Origin: Xiphophorus maculatus
Lineage: Eukaryota > Chordata > Actinopteri > Cyprinodontiformes > Poeciliidae
DNA length: 64,000 nucleotides
Assembly (NCBI RefSeq): GCF_002775205.1
Contig: NC_036448.1
Span: 682,001-746,000 of the forward strand
Direction: 5' to 3'
Shown here in pieces: positions 5,486 to 39,300 of the stretch. The position numbers were made by a program, and so were the translations under genes. The stretch's first letter is position 1; the number at the start of each line of letters is the position of its first letter. The notes under the pieces are model-generated. The model saw only the letters and a list, made by a program, of their open reading frames with translations, made no database searches and was not told the origin of the DNA.

Positions 5486-7715
5486 CCTCCTCTTCCTCTT
5501 CTGTTAGCTTCTTCTTCTTCTTTAGATTTTGACGGCAGCTTGCATCCATTATTGTTGCACTACTGCCATCTATTGGATCCTAATATCTATACCTCAAATT
5601 CTCATAATGATCCCAGTATTTTTTTAAAAATGAAAAATCTTCTTTTTCCCCTCAATACTATTAAACTGATGAACCACATTCTCAAATTTCAATTCCCCAT
5701 TAAAACCTAATTCCGTTTTTAATAATCTTCTTTGATTTACATATTTTCTACAACTAATAAAAACATGTTCCATCGTTTCTACAGCATCACAGCAACTACA
5801 TAACCAGTAAGATGTTTTCCCATCTTAAAAAGAGTTGCATTTAAAAAACTGTGACCGGTTCTTATTCTGTTTATAATTATCTCCTCCCTCCTGTTTATTC
5901 CTCTAATTTTTACTACATCAACTGTATTTCGTATCCTGTATAAATGCCTTCCATTTATTTCATTATCCCACCTAATTTTCCATAACTTCTTACTTTCTCT
6001 CCAAACTATGCTTTTGCCTTCAGATTTAGATAACTTTATTGGCATATCAATATCTTCTTTTTTAATAGCCTCCTTAGCCAACCTATCTGCTCTTTCATTA
6101 CCCAAAATACCCACATGAGCAGGAGTCCAAAATAATATTAGATTTTTATTTTGTTCACAAATTCTATGATGAACAGCCATAATCTCATATAATATATTTT
6201 GATGATTATTTGTACTTCCTCTTCCAATATTTAACAATGCAGATAATGAATCACTACAAACTATTATTTTATTTATATTAGTATCCTCCACCCATTCTAA
6301 AGCTAATAATATAGCACATAATTCTACTGCATATATACTGAGATAATTAGATGTTCTTTTTGAAATATTAATCTTTAATTCAGAAATCACTACTGCTATA
6401 CCAGTCGCTTCATTTTTGGGTTTTTTCGAACCATCAGTATAAATTTGCAAATAATCATTATATTTATTCTGTATTTGATTATAAAATTCTTGGCAGATAT
6501 CTATTATATTTCTTTCCTTAATATTTGATAGTGATCTGTCTATATTAATATATTTCCATGTCCATGTAGGTCTCAAAGGCCACAATACTGTTGGACTAAA
6601 TTCTTTGTTATATACATAAAATGTTTTTGCTCTGTCATCCTCAACCCACCCAAAACTATCATTTGTTCCTTTCCTCTTTCCCAACAATTTTCTAATACTT
6701 TCTTAACTGGATGATCTTCAGTATGTCCTTTTAAATGTATCCAATAATTAACCACTATCTGTTGTCTTCTGATACATAATGGCATTTCTCCTGATTCTAC
6801 TTGTAAAGCACATACTGGAGTCGATTTAATTGCCCCTAAACAAATTCTCAATGCTCTAGCTTGAATAACATCTAATTTTTAAATCTAGTTTTAGCCGCTG
6901 AACCATACACCACACTCCCATAATCTATCCTTGACCGAATTAGAGACACAAACATTTTTAAGTGATTGAAAACCTGCACCCCATGCCAACCTGCTAAACA
7001 CCTCATAATATTAAGAACCTTTTTACTTTTCTCCGTAATATGTTCTATATGATTTTCCTAAGTTAGTTTCTTATCAAAAACAGTCAACCCTTTATAATTC
7101 TTTCCCTTATGAATACAACTTTTACAACTTATATTTTTTAAGTGCCCTATTCAGTTCTGTTATTGTAAACAACATATTCAATGGATCATTTGTATCTCCC
7201 ATTTGCTGTAATAATTCCTTGTTCTCTAAAATGGTCTTTTCTCTTCCTATTTTCCCTTCACTAATATTTTCAGAACTATGAATTTTAACTAAATTATTTA
7301 CCAACATTTTTGCCTTTTCTCTGTCAGTAGTTGCTGTTATTTCTCCATCATTTAATATTGGATATCCAGTCACTCTTTTAATCTCATTCATCCTTTTAAT
7401 TGTTGCCCAGACCTTAGAAATATCTGTCTCCCTCCCTACTGAATTACAAAAACTCCTCCAACAATCTGTTTTTGCATTTTTAATAATTCTTCTTACATTT
7501 GCTTGCAATTTCTTGTATTCATTCAGATTCTGGAAGTTGTGATATCTTTTTTAATAATTTGAAAGCTTTATTTTGTTTCTTGATAACCTCAGTACATTCT
7601 GATGTCCACCAGGGCACCAATCTTCTTTCCCTTGCCCCACCTTTCTTCCTCAATAGCCTGATCCTCTGTCAGCTTATGAACAACTTCTGCTGGACTGTGT
7701 AACTGAAGATTAAGC
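5486..7715 (-). mobile_element. RNase H-bearing LINE (I/Nimb-like), copy A, with internal deletion
   Basis: This is a 5'-truncated non-LTR retrotransposon. From its 5' side (7715) it shows the pre-RT region with KAFK...VWATIKRMNEI (7122-7700), loses the reverse-transcriptase core near 7135, resumes at the post-RT linker (FDKKLT, then NIMRCLAGW), and continues into a 302-residue open frame (5779-6687). That frame has an RNase H domain with all four acidic residues visible: YTDGSK, VELCAI, CSDSLSAL and NERADRLAKEA. The 3' end carries a GAA-type microsatellite tail (CTT repeats near 5509) after a GCCGTCAAAA motif, shared with copy B. Compared with copy B about 300 RT residues (~0.9 kb) are missing, and several frameshifts are present, so it is a dead copy. 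RNase H plus this tail suits the I/Nimb group; the exact clade is inferred. Confidence 0.8.
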
Positions 7716-9659: not shown

Positions 9660-10530
9660 CCTATTTCCATCATGGGAGAAGTGGAGGTGGTGGAATATAA
9701 ATATCTCAGTGTTCATCTAGACAACAGACTGGAAATGCAACAGCGAAGCCAGGTATAATAAGGGACAGAGCAGCCTGAACTCATCGGGGAAGCTAAGATC
9801 TTTCAAGGTTTGCAGCAAGATGCTGCAAATCTTCTATAAGTCTGTTGTTAAGAACGTCATCTCATCTGTTTCAGCAGCATCAGAGCCAAGGACCTAAAAA
9901 AAGCTCAACAACCTGATAAAGAAGGTTCTGGTGACAATGATGCAAAGAATTCTTCATTTCAACTTTATTTACTTAATATACAGCAAAACACACTCAGTAG
10001 AAAGGTACAAAAACATGTTTCATTTCAAGTTTGAACAAATTGTTTTAAAAACCAACTATTGTCTTGAGGCTGGTCAGTTAATACCGTGGTTTTCTTCCAC
10101 CTGCAAAAGCAAAATATTAAACAAGTCCTCGCTGTCAAATACAGACGTCAAGAAACAACTCCATGTCAAACAATAGAGGAAAACAAGATCCTCACCTTTT
10201 GTTTTCCCTCCTCTAGAGTATCCACTATGAGCTTCCTGATGGTTAAACTGTCGCTCTGTGGGATAAAAAACTGTTCAAAAGAATATCAGGGAGCAAAACC
10301 TTCTGTCCATTTAAAGGGACATAATCCACTTAAAAAAATTTAATGTTGAACAAGTTGATAAAGAAAGCTGGTTGTGCTCTGGCTTTCCTGGAGATTAAGC
10401 TTCATAACATGAACATAATGAACACTGAGAATCCACTTAATGAGAGTGAACTAAGAGTGCAGTCCTGCTGTACAAACATAGCTCTTCTTCAAAGAATCAT
10501 CTACAATGACTGAATACACCCAACAGTAAG
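9660..10530 (+). mobile_element. LINE reverse-transcriptase 3' fragments (two pieces)
   Basis: Plus-strand pieces at 9660-9935 (GEVEVVEYKYLSVHLDNRLE) and 10335-10530 (LIKKAGCALAFLEIKLHN, broken by stops) resemble the end of a fish LINE open reading frame. They flank the 3' exons of the buc-type gene, which lie on the other strand. Both are degenerate and not coding now. Confidence 0.55.
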
Positions 10531-13080
10531 AGTTACAACACGCAAGTATTTTTGATTGATCAACTGTGCTATGACTGATATTTGTAAGATTATGAGGAAC
10601 ATATTACACCTGATGGAACCAAATGAGGTTGCATTACCTTGACCTGTCCCCCTCCATTGCCCATTCTTTCTCTGCTGTCCAGTTCTGCCATCAATTGCCT
10701 TTTTTATATCTACAAGATAACACTCAAGTTTCAGTAATCAATATATTATGGATAAGTCAAAGTAAACGTTCATTACTAAATAAGAAAAGCACTACCTGAA
10801 GATTTAAAATGATGTCTTCCGTTTGTTTCAGTATTCTTCAGCTCCCCACATAAACAAAGTTGCTCATGGAATTCATCACATTGGACACCACAGTCCACCA
10901 AAGTTCCCTTTGATAGAGACACTTCAGCTACATTTTGAACTATAATCTGAACTTCATCATCTTTGATGTCCACTGCATTCTGGGAAATCAGCTGGATGGC
11001 TGATGAGGAAATTTCCTCTGCTGCAGAATCGAGGGATATTTCTTCAGAGGATGAAAGGCTTTTCTGCTGCAGCTCAATCAGGGTGTTCTGGTTTGGGCTT
11101 TGACCATCCTCAGGTTCAGAAGACCTATTTTCAGCCTCATCCCTTTCAGTCGGAGTAGATGCGGCTTTTCTTGGAAGAGCTGAGGAAGGAGACGAGACAT
11201 TCTTTTTTGAGTGAAGCAAGTTTTGACTTTGTTCTGGTTTTATAGATCCAGATACATCCCCTTTCATTTCTGTTCCTGTCTCTCTCACAGGACTATGCTC
11301 CTCTTCTTGAATACTGGAACAAAGACAGTTTTCTGGTACTTGAACAGAGACACAGGTCAATAAGCTGTGCCCTCTCTTTTCTTCATTCATGAGGTTGTCA
11401 TTTTGGTTGAAGAGTCCAGCATTTTCAGCTTCCTCTGTCTCTTCATTAACTTTGCCATAACTTTGCTCCAACATGCCATTTTGTAACAGCCACTCTCTAG
11501 TAGGGACATAGGCAGGCAGAAACTCCACAGACCAAATGGATTCATTGGATTTTCTCTTCACCCGACAGCTACTAGCAGACATATGAGGTGCAACATCTGA
11601 GATCTTATGTAGATATGTCCTATTGTAATTTTCTTGCACCTCAGTTTCAGAGTTGTTGGAGGAGAAATTTTGCACATCATCTATGAAGGTTAATGAATGT
11701 CTTTCTGAAAAGCTTACTTCTACAGGCTCCTCATGTGTACTAGACTCCAGGAATGCATCCATTGTAGAATAAGGGAGTCGAAGGCTTCTGAAGAGCACTT
11801 CACTAACTTTTGGACTTGTCATACCTTCATCAATACCAGTGCCAAGTCCTTTAACAGAACCAATGTTTGTTTCTCTGGAATTGTGGGATAAAGGTTTGTT
11901 GAGCTCAACATCATGCTGAGATGTCATCCAAATATCAGTATAGGACAGCTCCACATCTGTCGTTTTCAGCAGCGCTGTTTGTGGTGTTCCACCGCCACGG
12001 TTCATCAACATGTCAGGAACAGAGATGCGCCTTTCTTTAAGGACAGCATCGTCTTTCTGAGATGAGCTAGACACTGGAAGTAAACCATCTGGAGACCTTA
12101 TCCTCATATTGAAATCCCCATCTTTAGAAAGCAAGTCAGGGATAGGCTCTTGGTCAGTATTAATTTGTGTGTCTTGCCTTGTGCTTCCAGATGATTCAAC
12201 AGCAGTTGATGAAACAGGTTGTCTGTGAAAGTCTGTTATGACGGTGGTACTTGCGACGGGCTCATTCACTTGCAAGTCTTTTTCTTCTCTGCTGGGCAAC
12301 TTGCAGACTACCACCTCAGTTAAGGCTTGCTTGGGGGAACGTAAGGCTGGGGAGCATGGAGAATTTGAACGACTTTCCCTCCAAGAATCTGAGCCCATGT
12401 CATACCCATGCATGCCTCTTTGTGCAGGCTCAGTTTGAACTTCAGAATTCACAGTTTTTCTTACAGGGATAAAATGATTTGGGCGAATTCTTCGCATCTG
12501 ATTAGGGTTCTGATGGGATGCATCTTGAGTGTGTAACTGTGGGTGGTGCAAGCGCCTGTAGTCAACTGGTTGAACATGAGGGAGAATATATCCTGGAGTC
12601 TCCATGTAAGGGGGTTGGAGTAGTGGGGGAGGTGGTGCAATCATACCATAGCCTAGAAGATAAAAAAAGTTTGGGTTTTTTTCACAAAAATATTTTGCTG
12701 TAAAATAGAAGGAATAAAGTAGCTTTTTGAAATTTATGGGTTAGGATCATTTATGTAAATCTGAGACTAAATCTAACTTCTAAACCACACACACTTGCTA
12801 AAACAAGAACTCATTACTCACCCATGCTTGGGAAGTGAGCAGAGGGGTTATAGGAGAAGGGTATCAGCCACTGGTATTGAAGTAAAGGGGGTGGAAGTGG
12901 TGCAGGAATGTACAAGACAGGATGGGCAAAGATGGGATGTTGGGCATGTGGGGGAAATCCCAGATCCTGAGCAGCACTTTGTGGACCTGGATCCTGCTGT
13001 GCCAACGATGCCACACCACTGCTGGGGTTCCTTCCATCAGGTTCACAATGAGTTGGAAGTGGTCTGTTAATCGCTGCCAT
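10078..13080 (-). CDS. buc: Bucky ball / Velo1 family germ-plasm organiser, complete coding region
   Basis: Five coding exons join in phase 1 throughout: 12822-13080, 10796-12652, 10638-10709, 10196-10255 and 10078-10100 (TAA at 10078-10080), predicting 756 aa. The N terminus carries the aromatic/proline-rich BUVE-type region: PVLYIP (~54-59), LLQYQW (~66-71), PGYILPHVQPVDYRR (~106-120) and SEVQTEP (~156-162). A long acidic, Ser-rich disordered middle follows, then GVQCDE (~675-680). The small 3' exons encode a basic, arginine/glycine-containing tail (RGTG, GYSRGG) ending GGRKPRY. In zebrafish and Xenopus, Buc/Velo1 builds the Balbiani body and germ plasm through its prion-like N terminus and binds Tdrd6 through methylated arginines. 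Whether this is buc or a buc2-like paralogue is not decided. Exon 2 could read nine codons past its donor (GTAGTG) to TAG at 10776, an alternative C terminus. Family assignment is strong; the last three exons are inferred from phase and splice sites. Confidence 0.88.
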
Positions 13081-13990
13081 ATTCAGACTACAGAATTAGG
13101 AAAGTGGAGTTAGTTGTGCAACACTGTTCTAGCAAATTAAAAATAAATTCCATCATTCATCATATAGAGCAGGGGTCTCAAACTCCAGGCCTCGAGGGCT
13201 GCAGTCCTGCAGTTTTTAGATGTGCCACAGGTACAAAACACTGGAATGAAATGACTTAGTTACCTCCTCCTTGTGTAGATCAGTTCTCCAGAGCCTTAAT
13301 GACCTAATTATTCTGTTCAGGTGTGGTGCAGCTGAGGCACATCTAAAAGTTGCAGGACTGCGGCCCTCGAGGACTGGAGTTTGAGACCCCTGATATAGAG
13401 CATCATTACATACCCAACAAGGTCTCAAAGCAAAGAAGAATACTCCTGGGAGAGAGAAAAACATTTTAAAACAACCAAGCTTGAGTGAGGTTTATACCAG
13501 CCCATTTAGCAAACATAGACTGACTTCATAAGTTAGAACTTTTCGCTTCACCAAAATATTGTGTTTTTTAATTTGTTAGACATTAAGTTTAACAATTGAA
13601 AGTTTACCTGTTTAAAGTTAAATAATTCAACATAAAAGCCTTGAAATCCATCTTCCATGCCAGGCAAAGATATACGTATATTGTTTGGTTCATTTTGTAC
13701 AGACAAATGTTGCTGCAAAGATAAACATGAACTTACAATTGTATATGAAAAAATTCCCTAAAATAGTGTTTTTCTGTGAGAATGCGGTATGATTAAAGAT
13801 GAAAAGTTCACACTCTGAAATAAAACCCTCCTCAGAGGTCTCACACTAATACAAGATATAAACTAAAAAAAAAAAAAACAGTAATATGAACAAAGAGAAA
13901 GAATTCCTGTACCTTGCTGAAAGCCGGACAAAGTATCCACTTGCAGTGCAGCCAGTCAGTGAAACATCACAGCTGACACACCTGACAATA
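13081..13990 (-). other. Candidate 5'UTR exons of the buc-type gene
   Basis: An acceptor (CTGTAG, 13088-13090) directly precedes the coding exon, so upstream exons are needed. Minus-strand candidates are 13414-13445 (acceptor CTCTCCCAG, donor GG|GTATGT), 13608-13712 (acceptor CTTTGCAG, donor CAG|GTAAAC) and a first exon ending near 13912 (AGCAAG|GTACAG). Joined, the middle two keep the buc frame but meet a TGA inside 13414-13445, which supports the annotated ATG as the true start. A hAT MITE (13170-13392) lies in the same intron. RNA evidence is lacking. Confidence 0.4.
13170..13392. mobile_element. hAT MITE, family 1 (CAGGGGTCTCAAACTCC ends)
   Basis: This is a 223-bp element with terminal inverted repeats CAGGGGTCTCAAACTCC / GGAGTTTGAGACCCCTG. 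It is flanked by a perfect 8-bp target duplication ATATAGAG (13162-13169 and 13393-13400), the hAT hallmark. It has no coding capacity and sits in the 5' intron region of the buc-type gene. A second copy is at 19534-19758. Confidence 0.93.
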
Positions 13991-15554
13991 AGTACGGTAA
14001 TCTTCTTCTTCTTCTTCTTCTTTTTGTTTTATGGCGGTTGGCAAACAACTTTCAGGTGCATTACCGCCACCTTCTGGACTGGAGTATGAACCAGATGTCT
14101 AATCCCTATAATCTCCCTATTAGACCTGTTTTTCTAAGAAACCTAAACACGGAATTAAAAACCACATCTCCAGATGATTTTTGTAGCAGATCTCTAATAT
14201 TTAATTTAACTTTATTCTTATTTAACTCTTCTACTAATTCCTCTCTTTCTAGATTATATTTATTACATTCCATAAAAATATGTATAACTGTTTCCAACTT
14301 TCCACAAAAATTACATAACCCCGTACTATGTTTATTTATTATTTTCAAAGTACTATTTAACCCTACATGTCCAAATCTTAACCTAGATATAATATCTTCC
14401 TCTTGTTTATTCCTATTTTCCTTTCTACATTCCCCCACTTTTTTTTTGAATACTATAATAAAACCTTGCCTTCTTTTCACCCTCCCATTGTTCCTGCCAC
14501 TTCTTCTTGTAAAATATTTTACTTATACTCCTTATCTCATTTTTACTATACTTAACTTCCAATTCAATTTCATTTCTCTTACTCGCACTCTTTGCAAATG
14601 TATCTGCTAATTCATTTCCAACTATTCCGGTATGAGCTGGAATCCAAATAAATTTAACAGTAGATCAATTTATTCCCATTTTATGTATTGATTTATTTAT
14701 ATCTATCAGAATGTCTTGTCTTGCTTCCGACTCTTGTTCCATAATACTTATTAATGCACTACTCGAATCAGAACAAATTAACACTTTCTTTTCCCTTAAT
14801 TCTTCACTCCATTTTAACGCCATTGAAATAGCCAGTAACTCTCCTGTGTATACATTCAAACTATCCGTTAATCTTTTATTTTCCATGATGTTTAAATCTG
14901 GAATTATAAATGCTATCCCTACTCTATCATTTACCATTTTTGATGCATCTGTGTATATTTGTAAGTATTCTCCATATTCCCTTCTTATGTATCTTTCCAC
15001 CTCTCCTTCTACTGTTTGTCTTCCTTCGTCCAACAATGTTAAATCAACTTTCATCTCTTTTTGTATCCAAGGTGGATTACATGAAAAATCCACCACCGGG
15101 CTAATTAAACATTGATTTAATCCTATTTCCTTTATTTCTTTATTTATTATCCATCCAAAACTATTTACATTTACATTCTTAACACTTTCTTGGCATGGTT
15201 GTAATATATTATTTATAGGATAACTTTTTTATGCCCTTTTACGTTTGCCCAAAACCCTACTCCTAATTGTTTCCTTCTTAACTCCAATGGCATTTCCCCC
15301 ATTTCTACCTGTAGTGCTGACACTGGTGTTGTCTTCATTGCCCCACAGCAAATTCTTAACGCTTGATACTGTATTTTATCTATTTCTTTTAATAAGTTAC
15401 TTGAGGCAGAATTATATACCACACATCCATAATCTATTACCGATCTAATAAGTCCAATATATAATATCTTCAAAGTTTTCCTACCTGCTCCCCATTCTTT
15501 ACCTCTTAAACACCTCATGATATTTAATATTTTTTTACTTCTCTCTATTATTTT
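13990..15554 (-). mobile_element. RNase H-bearing LINE copy B, 3' half
   Basis: This is the continuation of the LINE at 17681-19200, separated from it by an LTR-like insertion. It encodes the post-RT linker (NIMRCLRGKEWGAG, IDYGCVVYNSAS, CCGAMKTTPVSALQVE at 15213-15518). An RNase H domain follows at 14665-15096 with YTDASK, TGELLAIS and CSDSSSAL. A C-terminal zinc-knuckle-like stretch (LCNFCGKLETVIHIFMECN, 14106-14480) completes it. The 3' end shows GCCATAAAAC followed by a GAA-type tail (CTT repeats at about 14000-14021). Frameshifts break it into several frames. The tail abuts the 5' exon region of the buc-type gene. Confidence 0.82.
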
Positions 15555-17680
15555 TGTTGTTGCGCAACACCCCCCCCCCTCCTTTCTGTCTCTACTCTCT
15601 CACTCTCGTACTTCCTCTTCTGAGAGGGGAGATGTGCTACCAGCTCTCCTTCTAACGGGTTAATTGAGTTTCCTAAATCTGCTGGGATTTACCCTGTCCA
15701 GAACTGAAGTAAACTCTGTTTAAGCTGGTTTCGAGAAACGATTCGCCTAGTTTCTGACGGTCTACATCCAGGTGTCCCACCCTTCTTCCCCCTGTGAATT
15801 AGCCAGACTGAGCAGCCTACAGCCAACTAGTTTCACAGAGCACACCTGTTAACGGTCGCTCGTTCTCTATTTTACAACTTGCATTTGTTATTGAACCAGG
15901 TAGGTTTTAGTGACTCGGGCGAGTCCCAAGGATGTTGTTTTACATTTGGGCTACCAGCAACCTAAAAACATTTTCCACTTCTTCCTCTTCAGAATCAAAC
16001 ATCACAGCTATTTTACAACCATCAAAGAACTTTAAGGTGACTCATTAACTGAATGTCCACAACATCTTTTAGATTTTCTTTATGCTAAATATTTTATTAG
16101 TAAGGCATTTTTGCAAGGGTCAGTACAGCTTAATTCAGTATCAGAAATAATCAAATAAGTAAAATCAATCATCTAGTCTATCTTTCCCTACTGCTGACAC
16201 TGAGAACTAAAAAAGGGAACCTTTGAGAGAGACGGACGGAGTTTGGCGTTTCGATCCCCAGACCTGGCTCGATGATGATGAAGATGTTGCAGCAGGAGGA
16301 AGACGCCGATCGATGAAGGCAGGGATCTCCGCAGGTCTGATGAGCCTCCTCTCCGCGTGGATGGTGAGGTCACACAGGACTTGGTGCTGGCAGGAAAAAA
16401 GGCAGCAGTTCTTCTTCTTTGTCTTTGCCTTTGTCTTTGTCTTCATCTTTGTCTTTGGGGTCTGAACCCAGCCGATGAGAGAAGTGCGATTCGAAGCCAC
16501 AGGTTGTGGGCCTGACGGGTTGGTCCCCATGGCAGGACAGTCTTCGGCTCTGTGGCCCCGGCTCTTCTTCAGCTGCAGAGTTCTTTGTCCATCTCGATCT
16601 TGGCTCGAAGCTGCCCGGAGGATCCAACGAACAGTTCCTCTTTTGCACCCACCTTTTATAGGGTTTATCCACCTTTTGGTGCGTTTTCATTGGCTGTCTG
16701 CTTAGACAGATGATCTCATATCCATCACTGTCTTACAGACATTATGTCCTAATGTCTGTGCTAATGTCTCAGGGTTGCTCAACCTCCTATGTCCGTTGTC
16801 TGCACAACCTTTCACCTAAATAAGGCGTTGATCATCTCTGCTCTCCTGTTAGTTCCTCTTTTTCCCTTAACCGTTCACCTTTCACCTACCATCCACCTCC
16901 AACATATCAGTGATGTTTAATTGCAGTTACACCTTCTTACACCATTTCAAGTTCAATGTCAAAATCACATTTATATCACATTTATTTTCTTTAGCTTCTC
17001 TGATTTAGCATTCATTTATAATTTTATAACCATAACTTATATCACATTTATTTTCTTCAGCTTCTCTGATTTATCATTCATTTATGATTTTATAACCATA
17101 ACTTATTAATTATACTTATTATAATCTTAATGCGAGTTATTACAGATGTTTTTCTGAAAAGAAACCAAGAATAATCCATGATTCTAATTATTTAATACTA
17201 AAGTTACAGTTACTTGTTTTTCTTGTAAGTGTTCCCACAAATGTTCGTGTAAATATTATTACAAGTAAACCAATATTAATATAAGTATTTTACTTTGAAT
17301 CTTATCAAATTACCAAAATGTTTAGATTTCATTCTTTAAACTTTCATGATTTAAAATAAGGAATAGTCTCAGCTATTTTTTATAAATCTGCAGGCTGGAA
17401 ACTTCCTCTTTTTCCAGGAAACCTGCTTTTCCTGTTTAATGACTCTCTCTGACTGACTATGATTTCTTATGATTAGATAGAGAAAAGTAGAATTAAAGCA
17501 AAGTTTGCATGAGACAAAAACAACACACACACAACCAGATTTATTTTATTGACACTTAAGTCTACTGTTGGGCCTTGATGTCACTTGAGTGATTCATTTT
17601 AAAGATAACTTTATTTATTATTACTGTTAAACTAAAATCTCCAGCATGGGGAAGCGGGATGAGCTCGGATTTTCTTGACA
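15555..17680 (+). mobile_element. 2.1-kb LTR-like insertion splitting LINE copy B
   Basis: The insert starts TGTTGTTGCGCAACACC and ends TTTTCTTGACA, the TG...CA ends of an LTR element. It is flanked by TTTT duplications (15551-15554 and 17681-17684). Removing it restores the LINE frame (HISK followed by IIERSKK), which fixes the boundaries. Its CTTGACA end matches the solo LTRs at 22468-22831 and 58533-59811. I found no gag/pol frame and no paired internal LTRs, so it is either a very long solo LTR or a non-autonomous LTR element. It contains a tandem duplication at 16970-17106. Confidence 0.7.
16970..17106. repeat. Tandem duplication of ~68 bp
   Basis: Two adjacent copies run from TATATCACATTTATTTTCTT to TTTATAACCATAACTTA (about 16971-17041 and 17038-17105) and differ at only a few bases. 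They lie inside the LTR-like insertion. Confidence 0.85.
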
Positions 17681-19200
17681 TTTTACTAATATGTATTTTC
17701 CATGTAAGCTTTTTATCAAACCATAAACCTAAATATTTGAATTTATCTACCCTTTCTACTTCTTTATCATACATTTTTAATTTTATATTAGTGCCTACCT
17801 TCCTATTAGTAAAGTTAACAAATTTAGATTTTGAACTTGAAATTCGAAATCCCCATTCTAGCGCCCAATCTTCTACCTTACCTAACGCTTCTTGCATTTT
17901 ATCATTTATAAATTTTATATTTCTTCCCCGTTTCCAAATAAGACCATCATCCGCAAATAAAGTCATTCCAAACTTACCTTCGATTTTACTAAAAATATCA
18001 TTAATCATTATTATAAATAACATTGGACTTATAATACTACCTTGAGGAGTGCCATTTTCTGTTAAATATTTTGAACTTACTTCATTTCCTATTTTAACTC
18101 TTATATTTCTATCAGTTAAAAAATCTTTAATCCAATTATAAATTTTACCTCTTAGCCCTATTTGTCTAATTTTAATCAGTAAACCTTCCTTCCATAACAT
18201 GTCATATGCCTTCTCAATATCCAAGAACACTGCCATTAAAACCTCTTTATTCACCTGTGCTTTACTGATTTCATGTTCAAGCTGTACCATAGGATCTGTT
18301 GTACTTCTTCCTTTCCTGAAGCCATATTGATATTTTATTTTTCCTCTTGATTCTAAGAAGTAAATTAACCTATTATTCACCATTCTCTCCATTACTTTTC
18401 CGTCACAAGATGTTAACGCTATTGGCCTGTAACTTTCAGTTAACTGAGGATCCTTACCTGGTTTACATATAGGAATAATAATTGATTCTTTCCACTTATC
18501 TGGCAAAGTTCCTTCTTCCCATATTTTATTATATAGTTTTAGTAAAACTAATTTACTCCTTTCATTCAAGTTTTTAAGCATAACATAATTTATTTGGTCC
18601 TCCCCTGGTGTTGAATTTTTTGTATTCTTTAATGCTTTTTTTAATTCTGTCATTGAAAACTTCATATTTATAGTATCATTATCAACCATTTCCTCATTTA
18701 TCCTTTCATTATATTTTCTCATCGTTAATTCTCTTCCTTCACTAAGATTTTCATTACTATGCACTTTAGCTAAAACTTTTACTAATAATTCTACCTTATC
18801 TTTATCTTCTATAATCATATTTCCATTATTCTTCAGTATTGAGAAATTATATTCCTTTGACATTCCTGACATTTTCTTAATTGTATTCCATACTCTATCT
18901 AATGCTGTAGTTTTTCCTAATGATTCACAATATTTACTCCAATAAAACTTTTTCGCATTTCTAATCTTCCTCCTGACTTCTGCTTGTTTCCTCTTATAAC
19001 TAATTAGGTTTTGGAAACTGACATCTTTTTTAAGTGTTTTAAAAGCCTTATTCCTTGCTTTAATTGCCATTGTACATTCTATATTCCACCAGGGGACTAT
19101 TCTTTTCTTTTTAATCCCTTTACCTTTTGGGATTGCTTCTTTTGCTACTTCAATAATACTCTTACTAACTTCTAAATTTAAAGTACGGTAATCAGCCAAC
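17681..19200 (-). mobile_element. RNase H-bearing LINE copy B, 5' half with reverse transcriptase
   Basis: A long open frame (17562-19256) covers the pre-RT region and nearly the whole reverse transcriptase. Visible are PGEDQINYVMLK, SYRPIALTSCDGKVMERM, the A-motif aspartate in LDIEKAYD, NGTPQGSIISPMLF, and the catalytic FADDG. It is 5'-truncated near 19200, where the flanking sequence has no LINE similarity. At the 3' side the frame runs about 40 codons into the inserted LTR element, creating an accidental chimeric end. The RT is well preserved but the element lacks an endonuclease and is cut in two, so it cannot move by itself. Confidence 0.88.
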
Positions 19201-19533
19201 TCTGCAGTTATTAAGATCAGCTGAAAATGTTGAAGCCAATCAGAGGGCCGCATCACAGGGATGCATTCTGCAATTCTAACACTAGATGGCGAGTCTAGCT
19301 AAGCTATAAATGAAAGTTTTTCTGATGAGTAGATATTAATCAGAATTATTTCAGTGGCGACGTTTTGTTGCAATGTCGAGTCATTTCCCATAGAAAAAAC
19401 GTACGTTTGTCTCATGGCCAAAAAAAAAAAGAAAGAAAGAAAATGTTTATCTTTGCACCTCTAAAACTTCATAAAGAAACCTTAACAGTAAATAGCTGAA
19501 GATACTATCTGACTCTATACACACGCTTTAAAG

Positions 19534-36366: not shown

Positions 36367-39300
36367 TTTTTATTTCTAAATATTTGGGAGTTTGCAACAG
36401 CTATTTCAGTTTGATATATCTAATAACTGATGGACACGGTAATATTTCAGTATTGAATTGAGGTTTATCGTACTAACAGAAAATGTATGCATCAAAACAA
36501 AATTTGACAGGTGCAAAAATGTGGGTACCCTTATCATTTTATTGATTTGAATACTCCTAACTACTTTTCACTGACTTACTGAAACACAAAATTGGTTTGG
36601 TAACCTCATTAAGCCTTGAACGTCATAGACAAGTGTATCCAATCATGAGAAAATGTACTTAAGGTGGATAGTTGCAAGTTGTTCTCCTATTTGAATCTTC
36701 TCTGAAGAGTGGCATCATGGGCACCTCAAAACAACTCTCAAATGATCTTAAAACAAAGATTGTTCAACATAGTTGTTTAGGGGAAGGATACAAAAAGTTG
36801 TCTCAGAGATTTAAACTGTCAGTTTCCACTGTGAGGAACATAGTAAGGAAATGAAAAACCACAGGGACAGTTCTTGTTAAGCCCAGAAATGGCAAGACAA
36901 GAAAAATATCAGAAAGGCAGAGAAGAAGAATGGTGAGAACAGTCAAGGACAACACACAGACCACCTCCAGAGACCTGCAGCATCATCTTGCTGCAGATGG
37001 TGTCACTGTGTATCGTTCAACAATTCAGCGCACTTTGCACAAGGAGAAGCTGTTTGGGAGAGTGATGCGACAGAAGCCTTTTCTGCAAGCATGCCACAAA
37101 CAGAGTCGCTTGAGGTAAGCAAAAGCACATTTGGAGAAGCCAGCTTCATTTTGGAATAAGGTCCTGTGGACTGATGAAACAAAGATTGAGTTGTTTGGTC
37201 ATTAAAAAAGGCGTTATGCATGCCAGCAAAAAAACATAGCGTTCCAAGAAAAACACTTGCTACCCACTGTAAAATCTGGTGGAGGTTCCATCATGCTTTG
37301 GGGCTGCGTGGCCAATTCTGGCACTGAAAATCTTGTTAAAGTTGAGGGTTGCATGAATTCCAGTCAATATCAACAGATTCTTGAGAATAATGTTCAAGAA
37401 TCAGCTACAAAGTTGAAGTTATGCCAGGGATGGATATTTCAGCAAGACAATGATCCAAAACACCGCTCCAAATCTACTCAGGCATTCATGCAGAGGAACA
37501 ATTACAATGTTCTGGAATGGCCATCCCAGTCCCCAGACATGAATATCATTGAACATCTGTGGGATGATTTGAAGCAGGCTGTCCATGCTCGGCGACCATC
37601 AAATTTAACTGAACTGGAATTGTTTTGCAAAGAAGAATGGTCAAAAATCCCTTCATCCAGGATCCAGAAACTCATTAAAAGCTACAGGAAACAACTAGAG
37701 GCTGTTATTTTTGCAAAATCAGGATTTACTAAATATTAATGCCACTTTTCTGTTGAGGTGCCCATATTTTTGCACCTGTCAAATTTTGTGTTAATGCATA
37801 CTGCACATTTTCTTTTAGTCCAATAAACCTAATTTCAATACTGAAATATTACTGTGTCTATATGTTATCGGTCGTATCAAACTGAAATAGCTATTGCAAA
37901 CATGCAAATATTTAGAGATAAAAATAATTAAGATTAATAGAGGTGCCCAAACTTTTTCATATGACTGTATATAGCAACACCTGAGCCTTTAAACTAAGGG
38001 GACAAAGTTGCCTTGTATTTGATGTGAGGAGTTTAAGGTTATAGCAAATCTTCATATTATTAGTTTTCTATGCATGTGTTACAATACAAACATAACTCAG
38101 CAAGCTGTTGAATTCATTACCTCACAAGGGAACTTGACGCTGTTTATAGTGTGCTCTGAGCCTCTATCATCACTGCCTCCCCAGTGGAAATGAAATTGCT
38201 TCAGTCGGTATGTTCCAGAGATGGGACCTCCAGTCAGGGCTGAGAAATACAAACAATAGACTCATTAAGACAGAGAAAAAAACAACAAATAAATCATTTT
38301 CCTATTTTCATCAGCCAATGACAAAGCTCTTTCAATAGATCATGCTAAAATGCTCCTGCTAGCTATGACTTTTGTAAGCTACTGTTGATCAGCTTTAAGA
38401 GGAAATAGTTGAACAATATACCATGAAAAACTGGAAATGATACATTTAGACTTCCATCCATCACCCTTGTCCCTAGCGGGGTTGGGAGGGGTGCTGTTGC
38501 CTATCTCCAGCAAGACATTTTGGGCAAGAGGCGGGATCACCTGGACAGGTCACCAGTCTGTCGCAGGGCAACACAGAGACAGAAAAGGACAAACAACCAT
38601 GCAAGCACACGCCCCCCACACACACACCTAGGAGAATTTAGAGAGACCAATTAACCTGACAGTCATGTTTTTGGACTGTGGGAGGAAGCCGGAGTACCAG
38701 GAGAGAACCAGGTGCACAGGGAAAACATGTCCATGCAGAAAGACCCCAGGCCAGGAATCGAACCCAGGACCTTCTTGTTGCAACACAGCAATGCTACCAA
38801 CTGCGCCACTGTGCAGTCCAGTTAGACTTTATCTGAGCCAGTGTCATCTGTGTCTACCAGTGTCTCCTTTATAAATAAACTGAAATAAATAGAATTATTA
38901 ACTACACATTAAGGGTAAATTCTTGGATATTTTTTCATATTTTTCTCATCTGTTTATGTTGATCATTTGATATTTGAAGTTGCCTGCATGTTCAAAACTA
39001 AATTTCTTTATGGCTTTTATGACAGATTATAGCTGTTTATCTGTGACAACTACTGGAGCACAGAGTAAAACTGAAGAGTCACGGTGATGGGCTGAACATG
39101 CATGTTGACCTTCAGATAAAGAACCAGGGCTGTTAGGAGATAACTGAGCACTTACATCATCAGACATGCTTATCTATGTGTACATACAGCATGGGTGGAG
39201 GAAACAAACAGGAGAGATAAAATTCAAAGGTAAAATAATAATATATCTTGCAAGTACTTAAAATAAAAGTCAGAAACCAAGTTTTAGGAGTTTAGGATGT

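Follow-up and report, generated by a model that had tools for sequence, protein, structure and literature searches.

Is the Bucky ball (Buc)-family gene on contig C6 of the platyfish, Xiphophorus maculatus, the counterpart of zebrafish Buc, or a different member of this family, whose proteins organise the germ-cell-forming material in eggs? The gene lies in a stretch of 64,000 nucleotides (C6:682001-746000; assembly of 704 Mb), referred to in the following as the window. From the sequence of this stretch, it had been described as a complete 'Bucky ball/Velo1-type' gene. We therein re-examined its structure, its relatives and its genomic surroundings, and compared it with Buc-family loci elsewhere in the platyfish genome.

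An intact five-exon gene on the minus strand

Between positions 13080 and 10078, the minus strand of the window holds five coding exons that join into a 2271-nt coding sequence for 756 amino acids. This gene is real, intact and already predicted by NCBI: our model agrees at 756/756 residues with P0001, 'uncharacterized protein LOC111608834 [Xiphophorus maculatus]', and the original prediction had coordinates, length and motifs right. It had also counted five phase-1 introns; the five exons and the phase stand, but five exons hold only four introns—each GT-AG and each phase 1.

Coding exon 1 (12822..13080, minus strand) starts with the ATG at 13080, encodes residues 1-86 plus one nucleotide, including the first half of the BUVE-type region, and ends in phase 1 at a donor at 12821, in agreement with P0001. 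Coding exon 2 (10796..12652, minus strand; 1857 nt, phase 1) follows an acceptor directly before 12652 and comprises the remainder of the BUVE-type region, an acidic middle and the motif GVQCDE. It matched its own genome at 100% across 12650-10797, and the stop-free frame around it extends over 654 codons, for which a simple estimate from stop-codon frequency gives about 1.5e-13 expected by chance. The basic tail is encoded by exon 3 (10638..10709, minus strand; 72 nt, donor at 10637; identical to P0001) and exon 4 (10196..10255, minus strand; 60 nt), and exon 5 (10078..10100, minus strand; 23 nt) contributes GGRKPRY and the stop; the last two exons are placed by consensus scan, reading frame and identity with P0001. 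Our simple consensus scan recovered three of the four donors and three of the four acceptors. It missed two weak sites that scored under its thresholds, GTAGTG at 10795 as donor of exon 2 and the acceptor of exon 3. Both were positioned via the reading frame and P0001; they are backed by identity with the NCBI model and by Poecilia, Poeciliopsis and Xenotaenia, whose proteins have a tail like that of the window protein.

An acceptor-like site found by the consensus scan 7 nt before the ATG (13087..13088, minus strand; last intron base 13088, exon resuming at 13087) suggests a further, putative intron in the 5′ UTR. At the other end, an AATAAA at 9964..9969 (minus strand), 109 nt past the stop, is a candidate polyadenylation signal by motif match. 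Directly upstream of the ATG lies an inverted repeat (13165-13397) with 82-nt arms that are 84% complementary, possibly representing a small mobile element close to the promoter.

Elsewhere in the window, the minus strand encodes RNase H domains at 5779-6702 and 14665-15228 (the second below the Pfam cut-off) and a reverse transcriptase domain at 17562-19298, which we take to be fragments of non-LTR retrotransposons. The plus strand carries a DDE_3 transposase fragment at 37206-37739, presumably Tc1/mariner-like. Neither tRNAs nor Rfam matches at gathering score were found. Outside the window, at C6:767,467-769,176 (L025:1467-3176), a 570-codon open frame lacking a Pfam match is possibly a coding exon.

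The encoded protein belongs to the Buc family

A search with the 756-aa model yielded 132 proteins at E <= 1e-3 (120 listed), and a separate alignment search yielded 140, again with 120 listed. Among the matches listed, several are named buc2l or bucky ball, bearing out the predicted similarity to teleost Buc/Buc2l, and the organisms named are teleosts. Records of zebrafish Buc or Xenopus Velo1, and proteins named as amphibian, were absent from the matches listed (lists of 120, 120 and 23). Identity to the window protein is 80-85% in four other poeciliid species, 65% in Xenotaenia, 60% in Fundulus and about 40% in many perch-like fishes; some relatives bear misleading names such as 'transcription factor SFL2-like' or 'histone-lysine N-methyltransferase SETD1B-like'. 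Acanthomorph orthologs filed as buc2l or LOC111608834 align over the full length (Morone saxatilis, 40% identity; Cyclopterus lumpus, 38%), and in M. saxatilis the BUVE region, a central block and the tail correspond to the window protein residue by residue. A literature search on Xiphophorus and bucky ball found no work on this gene in the texts available.

A profile built from the window protein and 38 related sequences, seven of which are from ostariophysans or salmonids, matched a three-row Buc-type profile with an E-value of 8.4e-16 across P0001 residues 38-165, and pairwise comparison of the BUVE region with the Buc-type gene on C21 (see below) gave 36% identity over 107 aa. On the strength of the buc2l and bucky ball matches and of this profile, the label 'Bucky ball/Velo1-type' holds for the family; it does not extend to a direct counterpart of zebrafish Buc, for which C21 offers the better candidate.

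The BUVE-type region runs from residue 54 in exon 1 (12822..12921, minus strand), as delimited by conserved columns and the profile match to the C21 gene, to residue 162 in exon 2 (12426..12652, minus strand). Close to its end, EVQTEP (12443-12426) starts at residue 157, with V158, Q159 and T160 among five invariant columns of 70 aligned sequences. GVQCDE (10872..10889, minus strand) occupies residues 675-680 and GGRKPRY starts at residue 750, so that the predicted BUVE-type N terminus, both motifs and the basic tail ending in GGRKPRY are all present in the 756-aa model. This tail (residues 701-756) has a net charge of +10, with K+R at 14/56 and G at 10/56 residues and only two RG and two GR dipeptides. 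Its terminal RY is common to Siniperca, Oreochromis and Oncorhynchus; the Gambusia model P0005 differs by a tail insertion and in its last residues, and that of Fundulus, P0007, terminates early.

Residues 163-700 carry a net charge of -36. An AF2 model based on 70 sequences had a mean pLDDT of 50.2, with 465/756 residues below 50, and a Pfam search of the window protein gave no family above the cut-off. The middle is thus acidic, as had been proposed, and poor in domains as far as Pfam is concerned, but it harbours the most conserved block of the protein. We conclude that the window protein has the features of the Buc/BUVE family—an N-terminal BUVE region, a large predicted disordered body and a basic C terminus. 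By description in the available parts of PMC6219760 and PMC8533965, zebrafish Buc and Xenopus Velo1 share with the window protein a BUVE-type N terminus, disordered body, conserved central block and basic C terminus.

Two further Buc-family genes lie in tandem on C21

A search of the platyfish genome for the avl9 family returned five matches, all on C21 near 23.77 Mb. We compared 100 kb at this locus with 100 kb around the window, each in ten pieces, by tblastn with 142 retrieved proteins. Two of the ten pieces from C21 contained Buc-family matches; outside the window, all ten C6 pieces were free of them. The C21 matches represent a tandem pair (L008 and L009) beside kbtbd2 (PDB match, 8e-297), avl9 and the likewise adjoining rnf31. 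According to the accessible text of PMC5080839, teleost buc2 lies beside kbtbd2-avl9-lsm5, and buc1 beside rnf31 and rnf152. At the C6 locus, a Kv2 channel gene lies 32 kb from the window gene, and the kbtbd2-avl9-rnf31 neighbourhood was not found. A phase-1 intron interrupts the BUVE region at one and the same point in each of the three platyfish genes.

L009 (C21:23,741,122-23,742,792) reads RPYFFVQPPSQQ... / ...YPVDYRRMFEP...RRETACSGAQTDPSDAINK..., and its exons 1-2 are open, with 531 codons and no stop, counted from where the upstream frame begins. L008 (C21:23,733,732-23,737,482) resembles ostariophysan buc2l, with E-values down to 1e-43. Its two main ORFs overlap in different frames of the assembly and its central block is degraded; the frame break may be an intron, an assembly error or decay.

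As given in the portions of PMC8533965 available, the Vasa-binding motif of zebrafish Buc spans residues 372-394, with D379, E386 and S389 as tested residues, R384 as the control and a second helix containing R, D, E and M; we used the residue numbers of that paper rather than a sequence record. L009 holds SLDELSSRDEMFS, in which the spacing of D, R, E and S and an RDEM stretch match D379, R384, E386, S389 and the helix composition. The pattern SLD-6-E-2-S occurs in L009 and in two of the 142 retrieved proteins, the Buc-like halves of catfish P0117 and P0124, which have H at the position of R384; with R384 required, it occurs in L009 alone. The window protein lacks this pattern, and unlike zebrafish Buc—which has D379 and S389 and lies beside kbtbd2-avl9-rnf31—it has no D379- or S389-like residues. 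P0117 (Bagarius) and P0124 (Clarias magur) each combine an L009-like part with a subsequent buc2l-like part, which is what misprediction of a tandem pair would produce; they appear to be fusions of neighbouring buc and buc2l genes.

The window gene as a probable third, buc2l-class paralog

In a 42-protein tree, the window gene clusters with other poeciliids, then with other cyprinodontiforms and Melanotaenia, and groups with acanthomorph buc2l. A 22-row tree, rooted on the Buc clade by assumption, united L009 with the catfish Buc parts (100/100), the acanthomorph proteins of the window type with Oncorhynchus (95/95) and L008, flagged as a long branch, with ostariophysan buc2l (83/89). Since these three clades meet at one node, the tree alone cannot tell which two are sisters. 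In pairwise BLASTP, the window protein matched Colossoma buc2l at E 2e-19, L008 at 2e-14 and L009 at 2e-8. Ostariophysan buc2l and L008 are 39-50% identical to the window protein in the BUVE region, yet form a separate clade; the ostariophysan proteins carry an SVWSVESLxPYxPxxEW block, and their last three residues are TRY or TRC. The pairing of the window gene with buc2l is weakened because L008 scores nearly the same against the window protein (60.5 bits) as against L009 (61.6 bits). Given the rooting on the Buc clade and raw similarity, we infer that the window gene would be nearer to buc2l than to Buc.

Most likely, then, the window gene is a third, buc2l-class paralog and not the positional ortholog of zebrafish buc, because L009 has both the Vasa-motif residues and the kbtbd2-avl9-rnf31 neighbourhood, and the window gene has neither. 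Orthology with zebrafish Buc was considered and rejected on these same two features, both of which are found at C21. In the available text, Skugor et al. use synteny to tell buc1, buc2 and bucL apart. Their scheme gave no name for the window gene, because rnf31 and kbtbd2-avl9 occur together on C21, and neither rnf152 nor lsm5 was located. What is new is the three-locus picture, with at least three Buc-family loci in platyfish, together with a conserved helix block described below.

In Antarctic notothenioids, several buc2l-class proteins are encoded per contig: three in Champsocephalus gunnari, and three plus one elsewhere in Pogonophryne albipinna (P0055, P0065, P0109; P0053, P0076, P0097). 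These clusters look like a recent tandem expansion, on which no paper was found among the literature matches listed.

A conserved block within the disordered middle

The central block SIWSVEFLPAYVPTREWLLQNGML (11469..11540, minus strand; residues 458-481) stands out by conservation and by a predicted helix. When all 142 retrieved proteins were aligned, including P0001 and the fragments, conservation over 15-residue segments peaked at residues 456-470, with 3.74 bits compared with a median of 2.27; the next four segments all lie in the BUVE region. The most conserved stretch is NESIWSVEFLPAYVP, followed by TREWLLQNGML. AF2 placed its sole helix at residues 472-477, with a mean pLDDT of 91 for residues 471-480 and values below 50 for residues 442-463. 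A strict block pattern occurs in 118 of the 142 proteins (once in 114, twice in two and three times in two), and the other 24 include both fragments and proteins with a looser block, among them P0001-P0005. Repeats of the WSVESLxPYVPS block were seen in P0136, P0128, P0110 and P0058—three copies in Cirrhinus mrigala and Triplophysa rosa, two in Oncorhynchus and Myripristis.

The WSVES block and the L009 motif share their order, an upstream [FY]xIL[KR]LP stretch and one glutamate in ungapped spacing, in a column with E in 121/142 and D in 13/142 proteins. Counted without gaps from the SL/FL pair, this glutamate (E473) is the only one of the tested Vasa-motif residues that is kept. Profile comparison of the central block with the Buc Vasa-binding motif gave no significant alignment; among 53 query windows, the best match fell on the 12-column [FY]xIL[KR]LP stretch (P 0.0067, uncorrected). 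By eye, length and spacing had suggested that the WSVES block is itself the published Vasa-binding motif; this was rejected, with L009 fitting all four positions and no significant profile match for the block. Because of that missing alignment, docking of Vasa by the central block is a guess.

Private changes in the platyfish copy

The platyfish protein shows no difference in kind from acanthomorph buc2l. It does change five otherwise invariant columns of 20 aligned proteins (P72L, G82H, P98L, G177W and S464F), a post hoc count from one assembly. The same count gives 0, 0, 2 and 0 for four other poeciliids and 0 to 4 for the remaining 15 fishes; among 14 acanthomorphs alone, platyfish has five and the others 0 to 11. 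In the 142-protein set, the platyfish residue at positions 98, 177 and 464 recurs in one or two other proteins, and the column of residue 464, inside the central block, holds S in 133, F in two (platyfish and P0108), P in one, D in one and a gap in five. Judged from these substitutions, S464F included, the changes could hint at relaxed constraint. Overall acceleration of the platyfish copy was rejected, as its terminal branch in the 42-protein tree (0.074) is no longer than those of relatives (0.082 and 0.099).

Proposed function in the oocyte

The window gene is an intact member of the Buc family and encodes a mostly disordered protein, likely a scaffold of the class named buc2l by NCBI. It is probably expressed in oocytes, where it would contribute to condensing RNA and proteins within the Balbiani body or the germ plasm. 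We infer expression, condensation and binding partners of the protein, and this reading is held most likely given the analogy with Buc and Velo1 and the behaviour of medaka bucl mRNA. As described in the accessible parts of PMC10984276, medaka possesses both genes, buc and bucl, with the bucl transcript accumulating at the microtubule dome and the Balbiani body; salmon Buc1a and Buc2a are located in the Balbiani body according to the text available from PMC5080839. By analogy with Buc and Velo1, as covered in the available parts of PMC6219760 and PMC8533965, the aromatic- and proline-rich BUVE region would drive self-assembly and the basic tail may contact RNA or Tudor proteins. The acidic middle would serve as a flexible linker, from which the conserved, predicted WSVES...REW helix may dock a partner. 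A role comparable to that of Drosophila Oskar has been proposed for Buc in the consulted portion of PMC6219760, with no sequence relation claimed.

Two other readings have to be weighed. The window gene might itself be the functional platyfish Buc and germ-plasm organiser, with the C21 genes as decayed relatives: it is intact and full-length with its BUVE region present, the reading frame of L008 is interrupted from one main ORF to the other, and Skugor et al. propose, in the available text, that Buc2 took over the role of Buc1 in most teleosts. We regard this as unlikely, however, as L009 is open in exons 1-2 and has the Vasa-binding residues and the kbtbd2-avl9-rnf31 neighbourhood, and as the D379- and S389-like residues are wanting in the window gene. 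Alternatively, a buc2l paralog may have departed from germ-plasm work into a somatic or accessory role under relaxed constraint in platyfish. The five private changes, set against 0, 0, 2 and 0 in the other poeciliids, point in this direction, but more distant fishes reach up to four by the same count, the frame is intact, the terminal branch is not lengthened and strong constraint acts on the central block across fishes, which makes such a departure improbable.

Within the preferred reading of an oocyte condensate scaffold, one may tentatively go further and imagine that acanthomorphs split germ-plasm assembly, so that the C21 Buc keeps the Vasa-binding helix and the C6 paralog, its corresponding position converted into the highly conserved WSVES...EW helix, recruits another, or the same, germ-granule partner—a possibility to which we attach limited confidence. 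Cypriniform and salmonid relatives have up to three copies of the block, as would be expected if its valency tuned condensation. The central block offers a concrete peptide for partner-binding tests in a family nearly devoid of recognisable domains. Finally, which platyfish locus fits zebrafish Buc decides the target for a knockout in a live-bearing fish, in which the window gene is so far filed as 'uncharacterized'.
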